The translations under genes were made by a program, and so were the position numbers. The notes under the pieces are model-generated. The model was given only the letters and a program-made list of their open reading frames with translations, was not told the origin of the DNA and did no database searches. Shown one piece after another: positions 52,019 to 64,000 of a stretch of 64,000 nucleotides of DNA; position 1 is the stretch's first letter, and the number at the start of each line of letters is the position of its first letter. The DNA lies in contig DATKXK010000015.1 in NCBI GenBank assembly GCA_035529075.1, positions 1-64,000 on the forward strand. The letters are read 5' to 3'. This DNA comes from Acidobacteriota bacterium (GTDB taxonomy: Bacteria > Zixibacteria > MSB-5A5 > GN15 > FEB-12).

Positions 52019-52268
52019 GACGCGGATTCCTCCCGGTAGTGACAACCTACGGCGGCTCCGGGTGCGACGCGAGGCTTTTTTGCCGCCGACCACGCCGAGA
52101 ACTCCCCTGCGGCCGGTTCGCCGATGAAGACCCGGCCCTGGTCTTCGTTTCCGCACTTGAAGATTGCAATTCTTCCAGAAGTGTGTAATTTGTCCCCAAG
52201 AGAATGGTGATCATCGAGAAGCATCTCACGTCGAGATGTTTCCGCTTCTGCTGCGGAGGAGACCCGTT

Positions 52269-53495
52269 ATGGCACCCTGTCGTTACCGTTCAATGAACAC
52301 CAGGCTTCACGTAAACCGCCGGGATTTTCTCAAGGCCGGCGGCGTCGTTGGCGCCGGTCTGATGCTGGGCAACCCGTCCCTGTGGGCACAGGACAAAGAA
52401 AAGAACGGGGAAACGGAGAGACCCAGGACGAATATCGACGAGGCGATGAAGGTCCCGCGAACCCCGCTATCGCTGCCCGGCTGTCTTCCCGGCAAAGTGG
52501 TCGAGGTGTACGATGAACAGGCGATCGCCGACGGCCGGCCGGTCTCGGAGCGCGTTGCGAACATGTTTCAGCGGGGATTGCAGGAACTGACCGGAAAGAG
52601 TCCCGCCGACAGTTTCAACCTCTTCTTTGAGGCCGGTGATACGGTTGGTATCAAGGTCAATCCCGTGGGTGCCGGCCTGATCAGCACGCGGCTGGAGGTT
52701 GTCGATGCCGTCGTTGCCTGGCTGGAGGACAACGGCATCCCGCGCGGGAATATCGTCATCTGGGACCGCTACGATTACATGCTCAAGGAAGCGGGTTTTA
52801 CCGAAGAACGGTATCCGGGGATCGGCATAGAAGGATTGCAGACCGCGGACGAGGAGGCCATCGGCGGCGAAGCAAAGGACGACAGCCGCTGGCTGGACGA
52901 CGAAGGCAGGCACGTCAGCGTCGGCAACTTCGACATGGACGTGTACTACTGGGCCGATATCGAGGGGCCGAAAGACAAGCCCTACCTGAATCAGCACGTT
53001 TTCAACGGCAAGTATTCCTACTTCGGCAAGCTGCTCACGAAGAAGCTGACCAAGATCATAAACGTCCCCGTCTGCAAGAACACCGGGGGCGGCATCTCCG
53101 TGGCTGCCAAGAATCTCGGTTACGGCGCGGTCTGCAACACCGGCAGGCTTCACCGCGGGCTGTTCTTTGACGTGTGCACGGAAGTCATGGCCTTTTCGGC
53201 GATTCGCGATAAGCTGGTCATGAACGTCGCGGATGGATTGGTGGCGCAGTACGACGGCGGGCCGATGCCCGCCGCTCAGTTTACGTACCAGTTCAAGACG
53301 CTGTTTTTCGCCACCGATCCTTTTGCGCTGGACATGATTTGCCACAATATAATGGTGGAGAAGCGCAAGAGCATGAAGATCAAGGTAAACGAGCACCCCG
53401 TCTTCACTGACTATCTTCGCTACGCCCAACGGCTCGGACTGGGTGTGGTCGACCCGGAAAGGACGCACCACGCTCGTGTGGATATGTCCGCCTGA
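52269..53495 (+). CDS. DUF362 protein with Tat signal
   Basis: 408 residues; ATG at 52269 has GGAGGAG 7 bases upstream. The N-terminus carries a twin-arginine signal (NRRDFLKAGGVVGAGLML, LWAQ). The DUF362 core includes GIKVNPVGAGLISTRLEVV, ISVAAKNLGYG and ATDPFALDMICHN. The family is of unknown function, often found with ferredoxins; no Cys cluster motif is present here. The Tat signal predicts a folded, exported protein. Together with the homologues at 56015 and 62813 it marks the ends of the AmmeMemoRadiSam region; a DUF6599-type gene follows 24 bases on. Confidence 0.88.
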   Translation: MAPCRYRSMNTRLHVNRRDFLKAGGVVGAGLMLGNPSLWAQDKEKNGETERPRTNIDEAMKVPRTPLSLPGCLPGKVVEVYDEQAIADGRPVSERVANMFQRGLQELTGKSPADSFNLFFEAGDTVGIKVNPVGAGLISTRLEVVDAVVAWLEDNGIPRGNIVIWDRYDYMLKEAGFTEERYPGIGIEGLQTADEEAIGGEAKDDSRWLDDEGRHVSVGNFDMDVYYWADIEGPKDKPYLNQHVFNGKYSYFGKLLTKKLTKIINVPVCKNTGGGISVAAKNLGYGAVCNTGRLHRGLFFDVCTEVMAFSAIRDKLVMNVADGLVAQYDGGPMPAAQFTYQFKTLFFATDPFALDMICHNIMVEKRKSMKIKVNEHPVFTDYLRYAQRLGLGVVDPERTHHARVDMSA

Positions 53496-53519: not shown

Positions 53520-54395
53520 ATGAGAACAGTATTAGTTGCAGCCGCCGTCCTGCTGGCCGCGGGCGGCATCGCGGCGGAGATCGTATATCCCGGCGATGAT
53601 TTCGTGCCCGGGTGGAAGACGGCGGGACAAACGCTTCGCTTCGTCAAGAACGACCTCTACGGGTACATCGACGGCGGCGCAGAGTTGTTTCACGAGTACG
53701 GGTTTGAAGACCTGCTGGTGCAGCACTACGTCAGGGGCGAGGATGAGATCAGTCTGGAAGTGTATCGAATGGCAAGTCCGGAATCGGCGCTCGGTATATA
53801 CCTGATCAGGTGCGGAACGGAAACCCCCGTCCAGGGCGTGCCGGTAAGGAACTCCGGAGGCTGGTCGCAGATTGCGGCTGTAAAGGGCGGTTGCTTCATT
53901 CAGGTCAACAATTTCATGGGTGACGAAGACCTCCTCCCCGTGATGGTCGAGCTGGTCAGCCGGGCAGCGACGTCCGTACCGGAAGCTGAACCCGTTCTGT
54001 TGTTAGACAGTCTGCCCCGGGAAGGCCTTGTCCCCGGAACGGAGTTGATCGTCAGGGGCCCTTACAGTCTTCAGATGATGCTCACGTTCGGCAAGGGGGA
54101 CGTGCTCGAACTGGGTTCGGAGATATTCGGTGTGGCCGGTGATTACCGGGATTCCGCCGGTGTCGTTTTCACCCGGATCGTCATTCCCTATCCGAACGCC
54201 GGGACGGCCCGGCACGCATTCGAGAGCCTGGTGGCTAACCTGGACCCGTACCTCACGGTAGAGGACGCGTGGCAGGACGGATTTACATTCAGAGACTATC
54301 AGGACAAGTTCGGCGAGGCCACGGTCGCCGAAAACGTGATCTCCATCCGCATTCACCTTCCGGCGACACCGGCACGGCCGGTCTTACAACGGTGA
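53520..54395 (+). CDS. Exported DUF6599-type protein
   Basis: 291 residues with a Sec signal peptide (MRTVLVAAAVLLAAGGIAA). The family marker YIDGGAELFHEYG recurs in the protein at 60224-61120, and the rest (VYRMASPESALGIYL, GGCFIQVNNFMGDE) follows the same plan. Function unknown. It follows a DUF362 gene by 24 bases on the same strand, and the MEMO-AMMECR1 gene converges 24 bases later, so it belongs to the cluster. Confidence 0.8.
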   Translation: MRTVLVAAAVLLAAGGIAAEIVYPGDDFVPGWKTAGQTLRFVKNDLYGYIDGGAELFHEYGFEDLLVQHYVRGEDEISLEVYRMASPESALGIYLIRCGTETPVQGVPVRNSGGWSQIAAVKGGCFIQVNNFMGDEDLLPVMVELVSRAATSVPEAEPVLLLDSLPREGLVPGTELIVRGPYSLQMMLTFGKGDVLELGSEIFGVAGDYRDSAGVVFTRIVIPYPNAGTARHAFESLVANLDPYLTVEDAWQDGFTFRDYQDKFGEATVAENVISIRIHLPATPARPVLQR

Positions 54396-54419: not shown

Positions 54420-55919
54420 TCATTCCTCGAAGATAACGGCCTGGAATTTCTCGATGACGGCTCCCGGCGACTGGTACGCTTCAGCAGGCAGTCCGGCCTT
54501 TCTGCACGTCTGCCTCAGGAATTCCGTTCTGTCCCAGCCGTAGTCCGTTGCGACCTGGGGAAGCAGCAGTCCGCGATTACCCCCCATGGAGATCATGAGC
54601 CCGTCGCGCCCAACCTGAATCTCCTCCAGGGACTCAACCCGTTGCAAGGGTGTCAAAACCGATATTTCCAGGTGCAGGTCGGCCAGTTCCGAGGCCTGGA
54701 CCAGAGGAAATCTTGGGTCGGCGACGGCCGCCTTGACGGCACATTCCGAAACCGTCCGGTACAGCGGGGTGCTGGCGACCGTGTACCCGATGCATCCTCT
54801 CAACTGTCCCTGTTTCTCGAGCGTGACGAATGCGGCGCCCGGTTGCGCCAGAATGCCGCTGACCTCGAATGTCGGCAGATTGCCGTCTTGCAGGTAACTC
54901 TCGATGGACTGCCGTGCGATCCTCAGCAGCGTTGTCTTGTCGCTGTCAGACAACATGGCCGTCGGGATTTGTCCTCTTTCTGCATCCGGGGAGTCTGGAA
55001 GTGTCGCCTCTGATCCCTGCCCGACCCTGGCCTTATAGATCGCGGCCGCCACGTATCCCACGACCGACCCCTTGTCCCCTGAGACATCGCCGGAATCACC
55101 GTAGCGCAGAATTTTCACGCTGTTGGCGCCCCGGGCCACGGCCGCTTTTATAACGGCCACGGTCGGGCCGCCGCCGCACATCTCCACTCTGCCGCTTTTG
55201 AGGTGATTCTCAAGGCCGCGGGCATCCAGGCGCATCAGGCAGTCGATGCCGAGGGAATCCATTTTCCACCCCTCGTCGGCCGCTCGGTAGTGTTGCCAGT
55301 CCGTTGACGCGATCATGACGGTCCGGCCGCCGGGACTGAGTTTCACCATCGCCGCGGCCAAAAGCCTGGCCGTGGGTGGATCGGGCCGCCCCATGATTGC
55401 CGGCACGATTTCGAATTCTTTGAGCACTGTCTGAAGGTACGGGAGTTGGACCTCAAGGCAATGTTCAGCCTCGTGCGCCTGTGGTGATTCGGCAATCAGC
55501 GGATCGAAATCTATGAGTTCTTTGCAGAGACGGTCATCGCACGGAACCGTGCCGAGGGGCGTTTTCCATGCCACACCCGGGCCGTAGACTGAAACCCCCT
55601 CAAACCGCAGTCGGTGCGAGGGTCCGCAGAGGATGACGTTCTCGACGCCCGAATCTTCCAGCAGCTTGTAACTGTATGCCGCGATGGGCCCGGAATAGAT
55701 CAGGCCGGCGTGGGGTACGATCAGCGCTATGAGCTCGCCGTCGATCGACGCCGAGTCGCCGACCGCCGAAAGGTGATCTCCCACCATTGCCGCCAGCGCG
55801 GCGCTGTCGGCGGGATAGAAGGTGCCGGCTACGGCCGGTTCCCTGACGGTTGAGTTAGCTGCGCTGGCGCAGAACAGACCAAGTAAAAGGAAACCTGCAA
55901 GGGGAACGGCCCTGCTCAT
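54420..55919 (-). CDS. MEMO-AMMECR1 fusion with signal peptide (AmmeMemoRadiSam B and A)
   Basis: 499 residues from the ATG at 55919, backed by GAGGAGG; a longer frame has no such site. Signal peptide MSRAVPLAGFLLLGLFCASAAN. MEMO domain ~20-290: REPAVAGTFYPADSAAL, VPHAGLIYSG, CGPSHR, EHCLEVQLPYL, STDWQHY and VEMCGGGPT; the two His and the Cys match the metal-binding positions known from human MEMO1. AMMECR1 domain ~320-499 with LRGCIGYTV. The fusion of the two halves is known in bacteria, but export of both is notable. Divergent from the DUF362/AmrS operon at 56015. Confidence 0.9.
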   Translation of the reverse strand: MSRAVPLAGFLLLGLFCASAANSTVREPAVAGTFYPADSAALAAMVGDHLSAVGDSASIDGELIALIVPHAGLIYSGPIAAYSYKLLEDSGVENVILCGPSHRLRFEGVSVYGPGVAWKTPLGTVPCDDRLCKELIDFDPLIAESPQAHEAEHCLEVQLPYLQTVLKEFEIVPAIMGRPDPPTARLLAAAMVKLSPGGRTVMIASTDWQHYRAADEGWKMDSLGIDCLMRLDARGLENHLKSGRVEMCGGGPTVAVIKAAVARGANSVKILRYGDSGDVSGDKGSVVGYVAAAIYKARVGQGSEATLPDSPDAERGQIPTAMLSDSDKTTLLRIARQSIESYLQDGNLPTFEVSGILAQPGAAFVTLEKQGQLRGCIGYTVASTPLYRTVSECAVKAAVADPRFPLVQASELADLHLEISVLTPLQRVESLEEIQVGRDGLMISMGGNRGLLLPQVATDYGWDRTEFLRQTCRKAGLPAEAYQSPGAVIEKFQAVIFEE

Positions 55920-56002
55920 TCTATGACCTCCTCGGGTATAATCGGCCAACCGACCGCGCGGCGGCGTCGGGAAAACCGGTGTCGCTGGTTGCGAGTTTCT
56001 CG

Positions 56003-56014: not shown

Positions 56015-56935
56015 ATGAGTCGTGTCGTTGTCGTCAAGTCTAATGGTAAGCCCACGGGAAACGGATTTGGTCGACAGGAATACGTTGCCCTGCTTTCGGC
56101 CGGTCTTGGGTGGCTTTCCGGTGAGAACGAGGTGCGGGCGGCGCTGCGCAAATACCTGCCCTCAGGCACGATCGGTATGAAAACGAACTGCCTGGTCGGC
56201 AGGCGCAATTCGACGCCGGTGGCGCTGGTTGATGCGCTGTCCCAGCTGCTGACCGGCGCCGGGTTTGACGAAAATGACCTGGTCGTGTGGGATCGGACCA
56301 ACCGGGAACTGGCCGGGGCCGACTTCCCGCTCAACGCGGCTTCCAGGGGCCGGCGGTGCCTGGGCACGGACACAAACGGGGCCGGGTACAGTGAAGAATT
56401 CTACAGTTTTGGAGAAGTCAATTCTCTGGTTACTCGCATTCTTACGGACATGGTCGACCACAACGTCAATCTGCCGGTGCTCAAGGACCATTCCATAGCG
56501 GGTCTTTCGGCCGGGCTGAAGAACATGTACGGTGCGATACACAACCCGAACAAGTACCACGGCAACAACTGCGATCCCTACTGTGCCCACGTCTCCAACC
56601 TTTCGCCCATCCGGCAGAAGAACCGGCTGACCGTACTCGACGCCGTCCGGGTCCAGTATGATCGCGGTCCCGGTTTTGTCGGCAGGCATATGTACTCTTA
56701 CAACGGCGTAGTGATCTCTGATGACCCGGTGGCTGCCGACCGGGTGGGGCTGGAGATTCTGGAGCGTATCCGCGCTATCAACGGTCTGCCTTCCCTCGAG
56801 AAGGCCGGGCGGCCCGTGAAATACCTCGGTTCGGCCGAAGCGACAGGGCTCGGGACGGCCGACCTGTCGCGTATAGATCTGAACGTGGTGCTGGTTGACG
56901 CCGACGGGCGCCGTCGGCCGGGAGAACTGTTCTGA
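56015..56935 (+). CDS. DUF362 protein without signal peptide
   Basis: 306 residues starting MSRVVVVKSNG, so probably cytoplasmic or carried by a partner. DUF362 core: GTIGMKTNCLVGRRNSTPVALVDAL, SAGLKNMYGAIHNP and ISDDPVAADRVG. Its stop overlaps the AmrS ATG (TGATG), so the two are translated together, and this DUF362 protein is likely a direct partner of the radical SAM enzyme. Confidence 0.85.
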   Translation: MSRVVVVKSNGKPTGNGFGRQEYVALLSAGLGWLSGENEVRAALRKYLPSGTIGMKTNCLVGRRNSTPVALVDALSQLLTGAGFDENDLVVWDRTNRELAGADFPLNAASRGRRCLGTDTNGAGYSEEFYSFGEVNSLVTRILTDMVDHNVNLPVLKDHSIAGLSAGLKNMYGAIHNPNKYHGNNCDPYCAHVSNLSPIRQKNRLTVLDAVRVQYDRGPGFVGRHMYSYNGVVISDDPVAADRVGLEILERIRAINGLPSLEKAGRPVKYLGSAEATGLGTADLSRIDLNVVLVDADGRRRPGELF

Positions 56936-58074
56936 TGCAACGACGGTCATTCCTTCGCTGCCTTGGCTGTGGCGCCCTGGCCACCGCCGCCTGCCAGACG
57001 GAACTGCTGCCTGAATACCTGGGCGGCATACAGAATGCGTACGCCTTTGACACGGCCGGGCAACTGTCGTCGGTGGAGGCACGCTACTACAAGAAGCTTG
57101 AAGGCGGCGGAATTGAATGTCACGTCTGCCCCAGGCATTGCCTCGTGACCGACCTCGAGCGGGGTTACTGCGGCGTCAGAGAGAATCGATCCGATGTATA
57201 CTACACCCTTGTATACGGCCTGCCGTGTGCGCTGAACATCGATCCCATAGAGAAAAAGCCCCTGTTCCATTTTCACCCCGGTACGACGGCGCTGTCGCTG
57301 GCCACGGCCGGCTGCAACGTAAACTGCAAATTCTGCCAGAACTGGGAAATTTCACAGTCACGTCCCGAACAGACTGACAACCTCGACGTCTCCCCGCAGG
57401 CTCTTGTCGACATATGCAAACAGAGGCAGATTCCGACCATGGCGTACACTTACTCCGAGCCGGTCGTTTTCTACGAGTACATGTACGACACGGCCGAACG
57501 GGGGCACCGTGATTCCGTGAAGTCCGTCATGATCACCGGGGGCTTCATCGAAGAGGAGCCGCTTGCGAATCTCCTGTTACAGCTGGACGCGATTAAAGTG
57601 GATCTCAAGGCGATGCGGGAGGCGTATTACCAGAACGTGGTCGGGGGCGAACTGAAGCCGGTCCTGGACCGGCTCATCCAGATCAGGAAATCAGGCGTAT
57701 GGCTCGAAATAGTCTACCTGGTCGTGCCGACCCTTAACGACACCGAAGCTGAGTTTCGAGACCTCGCCCGCTGGGTCAAGACGTATCTGGGGCCGGACGT
57801 GCCGGTTCATTTTTCCCGGTTCTATCCCCAGTACCTGCTGAAGAATCTTCCGCCGACCCCCCAAAGGACGCTGGAAAAGGCCCACGAGATCTGTCGCGGC
57901 GAGGGCCTGGAGTTTGTGTATCTGGGTAACCTGCGCGGACATCCTGCCGAATCGACGTACTGCCCGGCGTGCGGGCAGGTTGTGATCGGACGCCAGGGGT
58001 ACCGTATCCATACATACCGATTGACCGGAAACCGCTGTCAAAAGTGCGACCGGGAGATTCCCGGGCTGTTCTGA
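56935..58074 (+). CDS. AmrS-type radical SAM enzyme with twin-arginine/lipobox N-terminus
   Basis: 379 residues. The N-terminus has a twin-arginine motif RRSFLRCLGCGALATAAC, ending in a lipobox-like LATAAC. Then CHVCPRHCLVTDLERGYCGV, the radical SAM cluster motif CNVNCKFCQNWEIS (Cys-x3-Cys-x2-Cys), MAYTYSEPVVFYEY, and a C-terminal zinc-ribbon-like pair CPACGQVV...CQKCDREI. These match the AmmeMemoRadiSam radical SAM family (AmrS). Its stop overlaps the ATG of the polytopic protein at 58075 by none but is adjacent. Export of a radical SAM protein is unexpected and may instead mean only an N-terminal anchor. Confidence 0.9.
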   Translation: MQRRSFLRCLGCGALATAACQTELLPEYLGGIQNAYAFDTAGQLSSVEARYYKKLEGGGIECHVCPRHCLVTDLERGYCGVRENRSDVYYTLVYGLPCALNIDPIEKKPLFHFHPGTTALSLATAGCNVNCKFCQNWEISQSRPEQTDNLDVSPQALVDICKQRQIPTMAYTYSEPVVFYEYMYDTAERGHRDSVKSVMITGGFIEEEPLANLLLQLDAIKVDLKAMREAYYQNVVGGELKPVLDRLIQIRKSGVWLEIVYLVVPTLNDTEAEFRDLARWVKTYLGPDVPVHFSRFYPQYLLKNLPPTPQRTLEKAHEICRGEGLEFVYLGNLRGHPAESTYCPACGQVVIGRQGYRIHTYRLTGNRCQKCDREIPGLF

Positions 58075-60213
58075 ATGAATCGTAAGGCCTTTCTGCTCGG
58101 GTTCTACGCGACTGGCGGCCAGGTGCTGCTTCTGCGCGAGCTGGTCTCCTCTCTCAACGGCGACGAACTGTTCATTGGCACGGCCCTTTTCGGCTGGCTG
58201 GTCTGGGTGGCCATTGGCGCCTACCTCGGGGGCAGGGCGGTCAGCGGACCCGGATCAAATGCGCTGTTTTCAGCCGCCATCCTTGTCCTGCCGATAACGG
58301 TCGTTCTCACGCGGCTGTCGCCAATGGTCACCACCGGCCTTATCGGTCAAATCATTCCCTTCAGCACGGCGGCGGTGGTGTCGGGCATGATGATGCTGCC
58401 GACCGGATTCATCGCCGGATGGCTGTTCCCGTCGATAACCCGGGAGGACCGCAAGGCCGCCCAGTCGATCGTGCGAGTCTACCTGTTTGAGGGCATAGGT
58501 GCCTTTGCCGCCGGGCTTATCATTGCCGTTCTCGTCGGCAGGGTGGTCGCGACGTTGGGGATGTCGGTGATTCTCGTGGCGATCGTTGGAGGCGGCCTGG
58601 CTCTGCCGCGACGGAGCCAAAGACGACGCGGGATCATTGCCGGCGCGGGCGTCATCGCGGCCGTCCTGCTGATCACGCCCTACGCAGCGTCCCATGCCGA
58701 CGCGTACCTGGAAGGCGTCAAGAACGCCTCCTACCACGTGGAGCACTCGTTCGACACCCATTACAGTCACCAGGCGATCCTGTCCCGTGACGGCAGCCTT
58801 GTCCTGTTGACCGATAACACCGTTGAAGCGGTCTATCCCAATCTGGAGTCGGCCGAGAATATGTTAATCCCGCCGCTGGCCTACAACCCCGGCGCGCGCC
58901 GGGTTCTTTTTGTGGGACGGTCCGAATTCGGGGTGGCTCAACTGGCGGACAGCGTGCGCGGACTGTCGCTTACGACCGTAGATCCCCGGCACCTGCTGAC
59001 CGAGGCGCTGAGCGATCTGCTGCCGGTATCGCCGGCTGTCCGGCAGATCGAGAACGACCCGGTGGCGCTTTTCTCGCGAGCGTCCGGCTCACCGAAGTAT
59101 GATATCATGATTGTCAATCCCGGCGAGCTTGACATCTACCGGAACAGCCGCCTGGTCACGCCGAGATTCCTCAGGGCCGCCCGGTCATTCCTGCAACCCG
59201 ACGGCATCTTGTACCTGCCCACGCGTTTCGATACCGACCGGTATATCTCGGCCGACGCGAAAGTGCTGCTTTCCGTCATCCACAACGTCCTGCGCAGTTC
59301 GTTTGAATACGTGACTATGTGGCCGGGAACCATGACCCTGTTTTTCGCCAGCGACGCGCCGCTGGCGGACCTTACTTACGATTCGGTGAGCACCCGGCTG
59401 TCCGGTCTGGGGTATTCACCACAGTACATAAGCGATAACTATCTGGTTGATCGGCTGGACGAGACTAAGGTGCAGCGCCTGCGTGAGGCGGTGCAGCAGT
59501 CAGACGCCATAAACAGCATGGAGCGGCCGGTGCTGCCACAGTATCAGGCGTGGTATCGGGCCAAAGCAAACAGCCTCGACAGGGGGCTGTTTTCGCTCAT
59601 TCTCAGGAAGCCGGCCTGGGTCGTTGCCCTCCCGGCGGCAATTGTTCTGCTGCTGGTGGTTACGATGACCGGCAGGGGAAGAAGGCGGCGGTTCGGGCTG
59701 TTTCTGTATTTTACTGCGGGCGTCGTATCCCTTTCACTGGAGCTGGTTTCGTTTTACGTCTTTCAGTCTTCGGCCGGTTCTCTTTACGCGGAGATGGCCG
59801 CGTTGATTGGTGTCTTCATGCTGGGGCTGGCCCTCGGCACGTACTTCACGGTGCGAACGGTCGGTCGGGGTGCCGAGTACTGTGCCCTGTTGATGTTCCT
59901 TGCCGCGGCGATCGTGTTCCTTCTCACTTACGGTTCCGTACATCCGCAGATGGTCTTTCCGTATCATCTGCTGTTCCTGTTTGTGAGTGCGCTGGCCACG
60001 GGGTGCCTGTTTGTGGCGGCCACGCGCCGTTTCTACGACGGGAGCGCGGCTGAGAACCGGGGCTCCGGGTACGCCTTCGAACTGCTGGGCTCAGCTGTGG
60101 GGGCTCTGTGTGCCGTTACTATCCTGCTCCCGGTCATCGGGTTGCAGTGGCTGCTTCTTTCACTGATTGCCCTGCTCGTGGCGGCCCTGATTGGCAGCCT
60201 GGCCACTTCATAA
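58075..60213 (+). CDS. Polytopic spermidine-synthase-like membrane protein
   Basis: 712 residues with about seven N-terminal (~1-205) and about six C-terminal (~510-712) membrane helices, flanking a soluble Rossmann-like domain (~230-470). The start ELVSSLNGDELFIGTALFGWL and the mid-part HYSHQAILSRDGSLVLLTDN resemble bacterial membrane-fused spermidine synthase-like proteins. In the SAM-binding loop LFVGRSEFG replaces the usual GGGDG, so aminopropyl transfer is doubtful. Third gene of the DUF362-AmrS operon, starting directly after the AmrS stop. Confidence 0.75.
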   Translation: MNRKAFLLGFYATGGQVLLLRELVSSLNGDELFIGTALFGWLVWVAIGAYLGGRAVSGPGSNALFSAAILVLPITVVLTRLSPMVTTGLIGQIIPFSTAAVVSGMMMLPTGFIAGWLFPSITREDRKAAQSIVRVYLFEGIGAFAAGLIIAVLVGRVVATLGMSVILVAIVGGGLALPRRSQRRRGIIAGAGVIAAVLLITPYAASHADAYLEGVKNASYHVEHSFDTHYSHQAILSRDGSLVLLTDNTVEAVYPNLESAENMLIPPLAYNPGARRVLFVGRSEFGVAQLADSVRGLSLTTVDPRHLLTEALSDLLPVSPAVRQIENDPVALFSRASGSPKYDIMIVNPGELDIYRNSRLVTPRFLRAARSFLQPDGILYLPTRFDTDRYISADAKVLLSVIHNVLRSSFEYVTMWPGTMTLFFASDAPLADLTYDSVSTRLSGLGYSPQYISDNYLVDRLDETKVQRLREAVQQSDAINSMERPVLPQYQAWYRAKANSLDRGLFSLILRKPAWVVALPAAIVLLLVVTMTGRGRRRRFGLFLYFTAGVVSLSLELVSFYVFQSSAGSLYAEMAALIGVFMLGLALGTYFTVRTVGRGAEYCALLMFLAAAIVFLLTYGSVHPQMVFPYHLLFLFVSALATGCLFVAATRRFYDGSAAENRGSGYAFELLGSAVGALCAVTILLPVIGLQWLLLSLIALLVAALIGSLATS

Positions 60214-60223
60214 TGCAGACCGA

Positions 60224-61120
60224 CTACGGCAGCGTACTCAGCCAGAGACTCAGAAACTCCCGGTGAGGCTCGCTGTAGCCCACCATTCCCACTACCCTGC
60301 CACCGCGCAGACCGCCGATGACTGCGCCACCGGAACCGTCATCGGTGCCAAAAGCCGTGCCGTTCTCGAACACGAAGGTGCCGGAAGTCGAGTCACGTAA
60401 CCCCATCTCGTCAAGTCTGGCCTGCCACCGGGAGAGCGCGTCACCGGACATCGTCCCGGATACGAACAGCATGACCGTGTCACCGGCCAGAAAGAAGCGC
60501 CGCGTATAGATACCGGCAAGAAACTCGCGACCGAGAAAGGATTGGACGAAGTACTGATCGCCGGCAACAACCGTGCTGTCGGCCGGGAACAGCGAAAAGG
60601 CCTCAGGTGGCAGGGTGGTCCCGGGGACGCGCGGCTCGATCTCCTGCGCCGCCTGCATCAGGGCGCGCGCGGTTTCCTCGGATTCGTCGTAACCGGTCAG
60701 GGCCACCAGGAACTCACCCTTCACGAACTGAAGGTTGGCCGTGGAAACGATGCCCTCCACGCCGAGCGAGACCAGGTTGGGGGAATCGGGCCGCGCGAGC
60801 GAGTACAGCCCGTACGCATCCGTGGCGTTGTCGAATCGAAAGATCTCCACGACGATGGCTGTGTTGTCATCCCCGTATTCGGCTGTGGCGACCTCCTGGA
60901 AATTGTACGACAGAAACAGTTCGGCTCCGCCGTCGATGTATTCCCAGAGCGTAGAGTCCGTAAAGACGCTGACTTCCGAGGACCTGGCCAACCGGCCTTC
61001 GGCCACCGTATCGGGCAGAAGATCGGCGGAGTGGACGATCCCGGCCTGTTTTGCACCGTCGCCGCACGTGACGGACAAGAGGACGAGTACGCTCAGCAGC
61101 GACACGGCAGTTTTACTCAT
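60224..61120 (-). CDS. DUF6599-type probable lipoprotein
   Basis: 298 residues. Signal peptide with lipobox (MSKTAVSLLSVLVLLSVTCG, Cys19), then EVSVFTDSTLWEYIDGGAELFLSYNFQ, sharing YIDGGAELF with the protein at 53520. It overlaps the end of the ferredoxin membrane protein gene by 8 bases, so both are cotranslated. Anchored on the outer face of the membrane, it may be a partner of the ferredoxin or DUF362 components. Function unknown. Confidence 0.8.
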   Translation of the reverse strand: MSKTAVSLLSVLVLLSVTCGDGAKQAGIVHSADLLPDTVAEGRLARSSEVSVFTDSTLWEYIDGGAELFLSYNFQEVATAEYGDDNTAIVVEIFRFDNATDAYGLYSLARPDSPNLVSLGVEGIVSTANLQFVKGEFLVALTGYDESEETARALMQAAQEIEPRVPGTTLPPEAFSLFPADSTVVAGDQYFVQSFLGREFLAGIYTRRFFLAGDTVMLFVSGTMSGDALSRWQARLDEMGLRDSTSGTFVFENGTAFGTDDGSGGAVIGGLRGGRVVGMVGYSEPHREFLSLWLSTLP

Positions 61121-62813
61121 AATCCCGGCTCCTGTTAGCGGTCCGCGGTTTGGCTTTTCGGCGTCGAAGCAGAATCTGGTTTCGGGCCGAACGTGATTCG
61201 CCCACCGAGGTCATGTAGACGGCTGGTCGATCAATGACGGGGCAGGCGTATTCACACGCTCCGCAGCCCGTGCACAATTCCGGGTCAACGTATGGCCGCT
61301 TGACCCTGACCTCTTTTCCCCGGCTGTCATATGCGATTTCGTCCCGGAGATAAACGGACTTGGGAGAGGTCGGGCACCACTCTTCGCAGACGATGCACGG
61401 CGTAGCCATGGCCCACGGCAGGCACCGCCCGCGGTCAATAAACGCGGTGCCTATACGGTTGGGCGGCGTGTCCTGGTCACCGACCTTTTCGACCAGCGAA
61501 AGCTCGGCGATAGCGCCGGTCGGGCACACCTGGCCGCAGAGCGTGCAACTGGGCTCACAGTAGCCGATCCTTGCAATCAGGACGGGGGTCCATATGCCCT
61601 CCAGGCCGGCCTCGAACAGGGTGGGATGCAGGGCGTTGTTCGGGCACACGCGCATGCACTGGCCGCACCTTATACAGCGGCCGAAGAAATCGTCTTCCGG
61701 TGCTGCGCCCGGGGGACGGATCAAGCGGGGGTTGCTGTTGACCTCGAAGGCATCGCCGGACCGGAAAAGCGGAAACAGTACCAGCCCGCCGGCCACGGAG
61801 GCGGCAAATTTCCGCCGCGTAACGTCCACTTTGGGTGTCCCGGCGGGATTGGCCTGCGTACTGACCTGCTCGGGGAAGAACCTGAATCTCAGGGCGTTGC
61901 TCGGGCATTCCGCCTGGCAGTTCAGGCACAGGTGGCATTCGGTTTGCCGCCAGGGGGAGCCTATCTCCGGGTCGTCCGCCCCCTGGCAGGAAAGAAGGCA
62001 CTTGTGACACTGGTCGCACCCTGATTCGACCTTCTCCAGGCCGAATATGGCGAACCTGGAAAAGACGCCAAGGAGCGCCCCCAGCGGGCATATCCCACGG
62101 CACCAGAAACGGGTGAAAACTCTGTTGAGGGCCAGGATGACAATGAAGAAAAGGCCGATGGATACGACCGTGTGAAAGTAGTTCTGGCGAAAAGGCAGCA
62201 GAGCCCAAGCTGTAAGTTCATAGACGGACCGCGCCCCGGTAGTAAGCGGTGGCAGGCCGATGGTTCCGACCCATTCAACCAGGCGCAGGGCCCCGGTATG
62301 GATAACCGGCAGAACGAACGTTCCGATGGAGCGCGCCAGCAACGACAGCGGGTCGAGCAGACCCACCTGCAGCGTGCCCGCCGTCGCCGCGGCCAGAAAG
62401 GCGAACAGGATATAGTACTTGAGACGCTGGTATTTCTTGTATCGGTTTGACTCAATCTTGCGAGCGCCGCGTCTGCGGGGTCTCTCGGACCGGATCTCGG
62501 AAATCCAGTGGTTGACCGAACCCAGCGGGCATACCCAGCCGCAAAAGAAACGCCCGAGGAAGATCGTGGGGATCAGGACGACGAGCGACCACAGCAGGCC
62601 CTTATACACGGTCCCGCTGGAAAGCAGGGTGGCGATCGCCACCAGGGGGTCGAACTCCAGGGCGATTGAAACCGGGTAGGGCAGACGGATCTCCGTGATG
62701 TCGGCGGGGCGAAAACTCACCTCGAAGGTGGTCTTGAGCACGAGCCAGAAGAATACTGCGAAGAACACTACTTGCGAGATGCGCCGAAGGTTTCTGACAG
62801 TACGGACGTGCAT
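61113..62813 (-). CDS. NapH-like polytopic ferredoxin protein with internal twin-arginine segment
   Basis: 566 residues. About five N-terminal membrane helices with the NapH/MauN/YccM signatures CGWVCPLGSVNHW and CRGICPLGALLG; then several 4Fe-4S motifs: CDQCHKCLLSC, CHLCLNCQAECPSN, CIRCGQCMRVCPNNA, CTLCGQVCPTGA, CIVCEEWCP and CTGCGACEYACPVIDRPA. Near residue 330 TRRKFAASVAGGLVLFPL resembles a Tat signal in the middle of the chain, as if a NapH-like and a NapG-like protein were joined. Likely moves electrons from the quinone pool to envelope partners. Starts at the stop of the DUF362 gene (TGATG) and overlaps the lipoprotein gene. Confidence 0.88.
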   Translation of the reverse strand: MHVRTVRNLRRISQVVFFAVFFWLVLKTTFEVSFRPADITEIRLPYPVSIALEFDPLVAIATLLSSGTVYKGLLWSLVVLIPTIFLGRFFCGWVCPLGSVNHWISEIRSERPRRRGARKIESNRYKKYQRLKYYILFAFLAAATAGTLQVGLLDPLSLLARSIGTFVLPVIHTGALRLVEWVGTIGLPPLTTGARSVYELTAWALLPFRQNYFHTVVSIGLFFIVILALNRVFTRFWCRGICPLGALLGVFSRFAIFGLEKVESGCDQCHKCLLSCQGADDPEIGSPWRQTECHLCLNCQAECPSNALRFRFFPEQVSTQANPAGTPKVDVTRRKFAASVAGGLVLFPLFRSGDAFEVNSNPRLIRPPGAAPEDDFFGRCIRCGQCMRVCPNNALHPTLFEAGLEGIWTPVLIARIGYCEPSCTLCGQVCPTGAIAELSLVEKVGDQDTPPNRIGTAFIDRGRCLPWAMATPCIVCEEWCPTSPKSVYLRDEIAYDSRGKEVRVKRPYVDPELCTGCGACEYACPVIDRPAVYMTSVGESRSARNQILLRRRKAKPRTANRSRDYE

Positions 62814-63766
62814 CAGACGATCTCTTTGTATCCGATGGACCGGTAATCGACCGTGCCCAGCCCGGATTGCTCGCCCAGGACGATGTGGCCGACGCGGTCG
62901 CCCTGAAGGCCGAGGAATTCCGCCGCCCGCGCGTCAGCCGCCACGGGATCGGTCGAACATATGACCGTGTCCTCCCGTGCCACGTAGTCAAGCGACCCTC
63001 CCTGCGGGCCGCCCCGCAACAGGACCCGGGTGGCATCGACCACGGTAAGCGTGGGGCGGCAGAAACTGACAAGGTCGACTATAGACTGGTCTATGTGCTG
63101 GTGCAACTGGTTGCGTCGTCCTCCGAGTATGCCGTACAGGTTCTTCATGCCGACAGTACACTGACACATCGAGTGCTGCTTGGTGATAGGCATGTTGATC
63201 AGCCTGTCCGTCTCTACGAAGTATTGCAGCACGGGCCAGGCCGTCAGGATTTTCCCGCCCAGATCCATTGTCACGAAATCGGCGGGTCTCGGGAGCATGA
63301 CGCGGGCGCCGGCTTTCTCAGCGGCATCTCTTATGCCTGACCGGAGAAAGCAGCGGCGCGAGTCGTTGCAGCTTACGTCGGTGACTATCACTTCGGCGGC
63401 GCCGGCAGCCAGACAAATCCTGGTCATTTCAGCCACCAGTACGGGATTGGTATTGGCAGCCTGGGCCGCCGTTCTGTCCCACCCGATGTTGGGCTTTATC
63501 GTCACCCGCTCGCCCGCAGTAACAAACCGTTGGATGCCGCCCACGGCGTCGAGGGCAGCGTGAAGGGCAGCCGCCGGATCGTTATGCCGGGCCAGCGCAA
63601 CCTGCGGCAGGGACGGGTCCGGGGGCACCTCGAAGTTGCTGACCTTGGTCATGACCGGCTGATAAGAAGCGGTCTGGCGGTTGTGAAAGAGAACACCGGT
63701 CCCGCCGGTCACCGCCGCCAGGGCCAGGGCCTGACCGGATTTCTTGAGGAATTCTCGTCGCTGCAT
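62813..63766 (-). CDS. DUF362 protein with Tat signal
   Basis: 317 residues from the ATG at 63766; a longer frame to 63988 adds an unrelated leader. Twin-arginine signal RREFLKKSGQALALAAVTGG, then the DUF362 core: IKPNIGWDRTAAQAANTNP, CTVGMKNLYGILGG and CSTDPVAADARAAEFLG. First gene of the three-gene operon on this strand, with a promoter at 63799-63827. It is probably exported, and its neighbour supplies electrons. Confidence 0.88.
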   Translation of the reverse strand: MQRREFLKKSGQALALAAVTGGTGVLFHNRQTASYQPVMTKVSNFEVPPDPSLPQVALARHNDPAAALHAALDAVGGIQRFVTAGERVTIKPNIGWDRTAAQAANTNPVLVAEMTRICLAAGAAEVIVTDVSCNDSRRCFLRSGIRDAAEKAGARVMLPRPADFVTMDLGGKILTAWPVLQYFVETDRLINMPITKQHSMCQCTVGMKNLYGILGGRRNQLHQHIDQSIVDLVSFCRPTLTVVDATRVLLRGGPQGGSLDYVAREDTVICSTDPVAADARAAEFLGLQGDRVGHIVLGEQSGLGTVDYRSIGYKEIV

Positions 63767-63798
63767 ACTGTTCCCGAACAAATGGCACCGAACGCTCG

Positions 63799-63827
63799 AA
63801 TATATGGAATGCCCACGCGTCAGACAA
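63799..63827 (-). promoter_or_regulatory. Sigma70-like promoter of the DUF362-ferredoxin-lipoprotein operon
   Basis: On the reverse strand TTGTCT (63827-63822), a 17-base spacer and TATATT (63804-63799). Transcription would begin near 63791, about 25 bases before the ATG at 63766. Confidence 0.6.
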
Positions 63828-64000
63828 GGTGTGTTGATATTCAACAGCGCGTGGCGGCATTCCTTAAGGGCCGCTTTTTTGCCCGGTGTCCGCGGCCGAC
63901 GGCGGCAATCCGAGCAGAAATCGGCGCGGCCGACAGCCCGGGGCTTTCGCTTTCCGGTCGGAAATAGCGGGATGGCAGGGGCGGGCAAGGGGCGATTGAC

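Follow-up and report, generated by a model that had tools for sequence, protein, structure and literature searches.

A conserved branch of AmmeMemoRadiSam radical SAM enzymes with predicted Tat-type export leaders in Zixibacteria and other phyla

Introduction

Radical SAM chemistry requires SAM and a strong reductant, and because both are found in the cytoplasm, the enzymes that perform it are regarded as cytoplasmic as well. To our knowledge, SAM is not known to exist outside the cytoplasm. The question of whether such an enzyme could be exported is raised by a locus in the first 64,000 bases of contig C15, part of a genome of 3.04 Mb. This stretch, referred to here as the window, has Candidatus Zixiibacteriota MAGs as its nearest named relatives. 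An original prediction held that AmrS, the radical SAM enzyme of the AmmeMemoRadiSam system encoded there, carries a Tat-type leader ahead of an intact cluster motif. We know of no function for the AmmeMemoRadiSam system. Memo-AMMECR1 radical SAM systems are mentioned in passing in one source (PMC7159879).

Results

The AmrS Gene of the Window

AmrS starts with an ATG and comprises 379 aa, with the N-terminus MQRRSFLR; residues 3-20 read RRSFLRCLGCGALATAAC. It scores 368.2 bits against the NCBIfam model TIGR04337 (AmmeMemoRadiSam radical SAM enzyme; cut-off 220), has a Radical_SAM Pfam match and carries its CxxxCxxC motif as CNVNCKFC at residues 127-134 (Table 1), which confirms the predicted succession of a twin-arginine segment and an intact cluster motif in this enzyme. 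All 42 aligned homologues likewise match TIGR04337 (E up to 0.01). The ATG shares one base with the stop codon of the DUF362 gene upstream (TGATG, 56933-56937), and because of this overlap there is little room for an alternative start ahead of the twin arginine. At its other end, AmrS directly abuts the ATG of the next gene (58075).

Table 1. Features of the window, with the basis on which each was assigned.
Feature	Position	Strand	Basis
DUF362 protein with Tat signal	52164..53495	+	PF10518 TAT_signal, PF04015
DUF6599 protein, Sec-like leader	53520..54395	+	PF20244, sequence
Memo-AMMECR1 fusion, Sec-type leader, likely start MSRAVPLAGFLLLGLFCASA...	54420..55949	-	TIGR04336 and TIGR04335 above cut-off; leader hydropathy 2.49
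DUF362 protein without leader, candidate co-exported partner	56015..56935	+	PF04015; overlaps AmrS by one base
AmrS, Tat-leader-bearing AmmeMemoRadiSam radical SAM enzyme	56935..58074	+	TIGR04337, Radical_SAM Pfam, AF2, PDB fold match
AmrS leader (residues 1-37, MQRRSFLRCLGCGALATAACQTELLPEYLGGIQNAYA), a predicted Tat signal ending in AxA	56935..57045	+	RR 42/42, AxA 29/33, low pLDDT
CxxxCxxC cluster motif (Cys127, 131, 134)	57313..57336	+	Cys invariant in leader-bearing (100/100) and leaderless (64/64) rows
14-helix membrane protein, spermidine-synthase-like domain predicted outside	58075..60213	+	AF2, Foldseek, charge pattern
DUF6599 protein, lipoprotein-like leader (LLSVTCGDG)	60224..61120	-	PF20244, sequence
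NapH-NapG-like fusion, membrane Fe-S protein, candidate electron conduit	61113..62813	-	NapG/NapH profiles all below cut-offs; Fer4 domains
DUF362 protein, twin-Arg leader, internal start MQRREFLKKSGQALALAAV	62813..63988	-	PF04015, sequence

Conservation of the Leader

We searched 61 genomes, namely that of the window and 60 relatives. Matches over the family cut-off were present in 48 of them, and 33 long, 40 short and 5 AmrS sequences of a third kind could be extracted. The short forms and the third kind start at or near the domain; the third kind, found in five Zixibacteria genomes (L004-L008), scores more than 600 bits to TIGR04337 and has no leader. In all 33 long-type AmrS proteins of Zixibacteria, the motif RRx[FVIML][LIMVF][RKQ] lies within a few residues of the start codon. 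R3 and R4 are invariant in the 42 aligned homologues, which come from several phyla, and the remaining leader is variable. Across the best 80 named loci, which were picked by similarity to the query and are therefore a biased sample for this count, the RR leader was present in 79 of the 79 scored by script, and the 80th (L130), missed by the script's cysteine pattern, shows RREFLRY. According to their titles, these loci belong to Zixiibacteriota, Calditrichota, Acidobacteriota and Aminicenantes, Latescibacterota, KSB1, Planctomycetes and Tariuqbacter (placed in Electryoneota). In a wider draw on 60 Acidobacteriota-phylum and 59 Planctomycetota-phylum genomes, for which 58 loci were read, many AmrS copies again had an RR leader. 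As background, 452 other ORFs of the same loci (200 aa or longer; AmrS, DUF362 and NapHG-like ORFs excluded) were scanned for a similar motif, which stood near the start in 6. Nearly all of the sequences compared derive from MAGs.

Since leaderless AmrS proteins exist, the leader could be suspected of reflecting a wrong choice of start codon, with the true start lying downstream. We find this scarcely credible, given that the twin arginine is kept in 33 of 33 and 42 of 42 sequences, that the ATG overlaps the upstream stop and that the frame is open through the leader in relatives. Homologues lacking the RR or starting downstream of it were looked for, and within the clade the opposite was found; judged by conservation across these sequences, the leader is real and not an annotation artefact. 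The prediction had coupled the RR with a lipobox cysteine, and here only the former held up, as Cys20 is present in the window copy and absent from the other Zixibacteria sequences compared. A lipoprotein reading of AmrS was rejected on these grounds. A second metal site at the leader CxxC (Cys9, Cys12) was considered and given no weight, as this motif is frequent but not universal among Zixibacteria sequences.

An AxA motif stands just ahead of the AmrS domain in 29 of the 33 Zixibacteria long forms (AYA before F in the window copy). The hydrophobic stretch that follows the twin arginine is short and weak, and in the AF2 model the leader is drawn as a helix, with residue blocks 1-40 at pLDDT 58-74 and most of the remainder at about 90. 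The short, weak stretch and the helix would suit a leader that tethers untranslocated AmrS to the inner membrane face. We nevertheless consider such a tether very improbable, in view of the AxA at a fixed position, the export leader of the separately encoded Memo protein and the joint occurrence of RR and CxxCH in one subgroup (both described below). The host genome has one match to TatC (E 3.2e-66).

Distribution of Leader-Bearing and Leaderless AmrS

The two forms were compared in a tree of 164 AmrS sequences, for which the alignment begins 14 residues before Cys62 and so excludes the leader. All 100 leader-bearing rows fall to the same side of one branch (SH-aLRT 98); this is a quick tree without bootstraps, from which two short rows were removed and in which L127 was relabelled as leader-bearing and L271, with a KR-type leader, was counted as leaderless. 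L271 is a further AmrS of an Aminicenantes genome (G062), and its leader reads TKREFLK, a lysine replacing the first arginine. In a larger tree of 218 rows, also quick and without bootstraps, two changes suffice to account for 129 rows labelled as exported and 87 labelled as leaderless, compared with a shuffled mean of 68; two truncated rows were uncounted, and manual labels were given to L271, the second L321 row, four heme-type rows and four rows whose N-terminus is hydrophobic. The exported rows of this tree comprise a main group of 119, including one truncated row, and a second group of 11 made up of heme-type and hydrophobic-leader forms. Four Planctomycetota proteins (L313, L317, L320, and L322) have no RR; their N-terminus is hydrophobic and can be read as either a Sec leader or a membrane anchor. 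A search of plasmids returned distant AmrS only (less than 60% identity, 16 records).

The Active Site of the Leader-Bearing Enzymes

The AF2 model of AmrS has a mean pLDDT of 90.1, and its best PDB matches are structures of pyruvate formate-lyase activating enzyme (PFL-AE; 3cb8, 3c8f, and 8fo0). Searching the PDB by sequence with AmrS gave relatives of PFL-AE only. D223 and K225 of AmrS align with D129 and K131 of PFL-AE, residues that, together with their AmrS equivalents, we take to contact SAM. Cys127, Cys131, Cys134, D223, and K225 are unchanged in all rows compared, 100 with a leader and 64 without, and a degenerate active site was rejected on this basis.

It could still be argued that AmrS is exported after having lost radical SAM chemistry, and that it is now an iron-sulfur electron carrier or binds some other ligand. 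The Fe-S proteins among its neighbours and the CxxCH of one subgroup are compatible with such a role, as is the fact that we know of no SAM pool outside. This explanation appears improbable, however, because the cluster cysteines and the equivalents of PFL-AE D129 and K131 are kept in exported rows as strictly as in leaderless forms.

Two Sets of Memo-AMMECR1 and AmrS in One Genome

The genome encodes a second AmrS, on contig C10, which is leaderless and has its likely start (MLKAAAYFDKL) at the domain. It also encodes a second Memo-AMMECR1 fusion, on contig C3, leaderless and starting with MTEINRSEIRKPAVAG. In total, Memo and AMMECR1 are each matched twice in the genome, the matches lying in two fusions. 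In loci with leader-bearing AmrS, a hydrophobic leader was present on Memo in all 41 placeable rows of the 51 listed. For 20 genomes with leader-bearing AmrS, the copies read included a leader-bearing Memo in 19 and a leaderless Memo in 17; the copies read from genome G071 contained no leader-bearing Memo.

Genes Associated with Leader-Bearing AmrS

A DUF362 protein (DUF362b) is encoded near AmrS in 77 of the 80 named loci, and in 76 of these 77 it lies upstream within 400 bp on the same strand. Other partners in these loci, many of which are interrupted by contig ends, were a spermidine-synthase-like (SpdS-like) membrane protein (65), Memo-AMMECR1 (32), DUF6599 (31), NapHG (14) and DUF362c (14). 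None of the six partners was found, at the same search sensitivity, beside 40 short-form leaderless AmrS genes. The DUF362 partner is leaderless in all 41 Zixibacteria and 23 Aminicenantes rows counted, and has an RR leader of its own in 14 of 19 Acidobacteria-titled rows, in 3 of 3 Calditrichota rows and in one row each of Acidiferrum, Latescibacterota and Tariuqbacter. As to untitled bacteria, the RR called by script in L123 is far upstream of the likely start and looks spurious, and two other rows have none.

The chief rival to an outside site of action arises from this partner: AmrS may act in the cytoplasm, where SAM and low-potential electrons are located, on a folded partner such as the leaderless DUF362 protein, after which the pair would be exported. 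The position of DUF362 directly upstream of AmrS and its lack of a leader in Zixibacteria and Aminicenantes are consistent with this possibility, and Tat carries folded, cofactor-loaded complexes, with hitchhiking described in PMC10924467. Nonetheless, Calditrichota and most Acidobacteriota encode a DUF362 that is itself equipped with an RR leader, so that the pair is not always co-exported. In addition, the Sec-type leader of Memo-AMMECR1 implies that this protein is unfolded during passage, and the CxxCH subgroup suggests a redox role outside. On balance, we consider cytoplasmic action unlikely, albeit the strongest of the alternatives.

The membrane protein encoded directly downstream of AmrS was modelled by AF2 with a pLDDT of 88.7 and a pTM of 0.90, as seven helices, a domain at approximately residues 221-495 and seven further helices (counted by eye). 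The best Foldseek matches of the domain are aminopropyltransferases. Pfam Spermine_synth (PF01564) is matched by 26 of 29 homologues, the window copy being without a Pfam match, and the glycine motif of the SpdS-like fold is GGG in 22 of the 29; the other 7, of which the window copy is one, have an altered form. Averaged charges, with helices and sides assigned by hand, place the positive loops opposite to the SpdS-like domain, which is therefore predicted to be outside. In one locus (L342, G170), a tandem pair of AmrS genes lies ahead of a gene for a SpdS-like membrane protein. A SAM transporter was sought in three outgroup neighbourhoods, and none was recognised among the 7, 8 and 8 proteins scanned. 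In the NapH-NapG-like fusion of the window, an internal twin-arginine segment (TRRKFAASVAGG) separates the membrane part from the NapG-like part.

A Subgroup with a c-Heme Motif

When 297 Acidobacteriota-phylum genomes were searched with one heme-type protein, 114 matched at E up to 1e-80. In 16 of 30 loci taken from the longer match list, AmrS has a CxxCH motif that precedes the first domain cysteine by 22-26 residues; the other 14, like the window AmrS, have none. All 16 (L353-L368) also have an RR leader, so that leader, CxxCH and radical SAM domain are joined in one chain. The motif pattern caught 12 of these leaders and the other four (L353, L360, L365, and L366) were recognised by eye; in L359 the contig ends before the start is reached. 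The gene order in heme-type loci is AmrS, Memo-AMMECR1 and SpdS-like protein (L334-L336, with domains confirmed in L336).

Covalent heme attachment occurs outside the cytoplasm. CxxCH is thus an independent pointer to an outside location, for this subgroup only: as a c-heme motif, it would be useful only outside. Alternatively, it may have a zinc-binding or other role.

Discussion

The Tat-type leader that the original prediction placed on a radical SAM enzyme is supported by the retention of RR in 33 of 33 and 42 of 42 sequences, by the distinctness of leaderless AmrS, by the leader of Memo and by the c-heme subgroup, and export of AmrS is strongly implied. Leader conservation, an intact active site, a conserved gene set and leaderless paralogues in the same genome are all evident at the level of sequence. 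We propose, with a probability of roughly 0.6, that the window AmrS represents the radical SAM component of an exported AmmeMemoRadiSam branch, that it leaves the cytoplasm in its folded state and that it works outside together with Memo-AMMECR1, DUF362 and the membrane protein.

According to this proposal, AmrS would fold and take up its iron-sulfur cluster inside the cell, and Tat would export the folded protein, with cleavage at the AxA. The enzyme would then act at the inner membrane, on its outer face, next to the separately exported Memo-AMMECR1 and a membrane protein whose SpdS-like domain would face outward. DUF362 would join them outside, as a Tat hitchhiker where it is without its own leader; such hitchhiking must be assumed because the partner is leaderless in Zixibacteria and Aminicenantes. 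Given the PFL-AE-type fold and the SAM-site residues, AmrS would most likely abstract hydrogen from a protein or peptide partner, or modify such a partner in another way.

We are considerably more tentative about the chemistry: it is possible, though on balance doubtful, that radical SAM reactions proceed outside with SAM or a SAM-derived reagent delivered via the 14-helix protein and with electrons delivered via the NapH-NapG-like conduit, which is encoded near AmrS in a minority of loci, or, in the Acidobacteriota subgroup, via the fused c-heme. Export itself, like the outside site of AmrS chemistry, its substrate, the electron route and the SAM supply, is an inference. As the outside is electrically positive, the membrane potential would help electrons to leave cytoplasmic ferredoxin, which may make low-potential reduction less implausible.

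A branch that spans several phyla, with export leaders on two partners and a c-heme motif in some members, would imply that SAM and low-potential electrons are available outside the cytoplasm. It would also give the AmmeMemoRadiSam system a compartment in which its function may be sought, and covalent heme attachment to heme-type AmrS would mark the outside location. The AmrS family itself is known. What appears to be new, within the partial coverage of our literature search, is the conserved export-leader branch and the c-heme-motif branch: neither was found in that search, nor was any exported radical SAM enzyme, although with partial coverage this does not establish absence from print.

Comparison with known systems places the locus as follows. 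Tat-exported Fe-S proteins and hitchhiker pairs, such as hydrogenases and formate dehydrogenases, combine an RR-bearing cofactor protein with a linked leaderless partner, as do AmrS and DUF362; in the accessible part of the source describing them, no radical SAM enzyme is reported as Tat cargo (PMC10924467). AmrS has a fold in common with PFL-AE (Foldseek TM-score by target 0.80-0.81), but with at most 17% identity over the aligned part, and it differs from PFL-AE in its extra N- and C-terminal cysteine motifs and its export leader; against the PFLA model TIGR02493 it scores 53.2 bits, far below the cut-off of 231.75. The central domain of the membrane protein similarly shares the fold of spermidine synthase and other aminopropyltransferases (PDB 3anx, 1uir, and 1inl), from which it differs by its location between seven and seven transmembrane helices, its predicted outside position and its altered glycine motif. 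Finally, all three proteins of the AmmeMemoRadiSam system (TIGR04335, TIGR04336, and TIGR04337) are present above their cut-offs in the window. What distinguishes the window is that its AmrS has a Tat-type and its Memo-AMMECR1 a Sec-type leader, a leaderless set being encoded elsewhere in the genome, and the window set adjoins DUF362 and the SpdS-like membrane protein.
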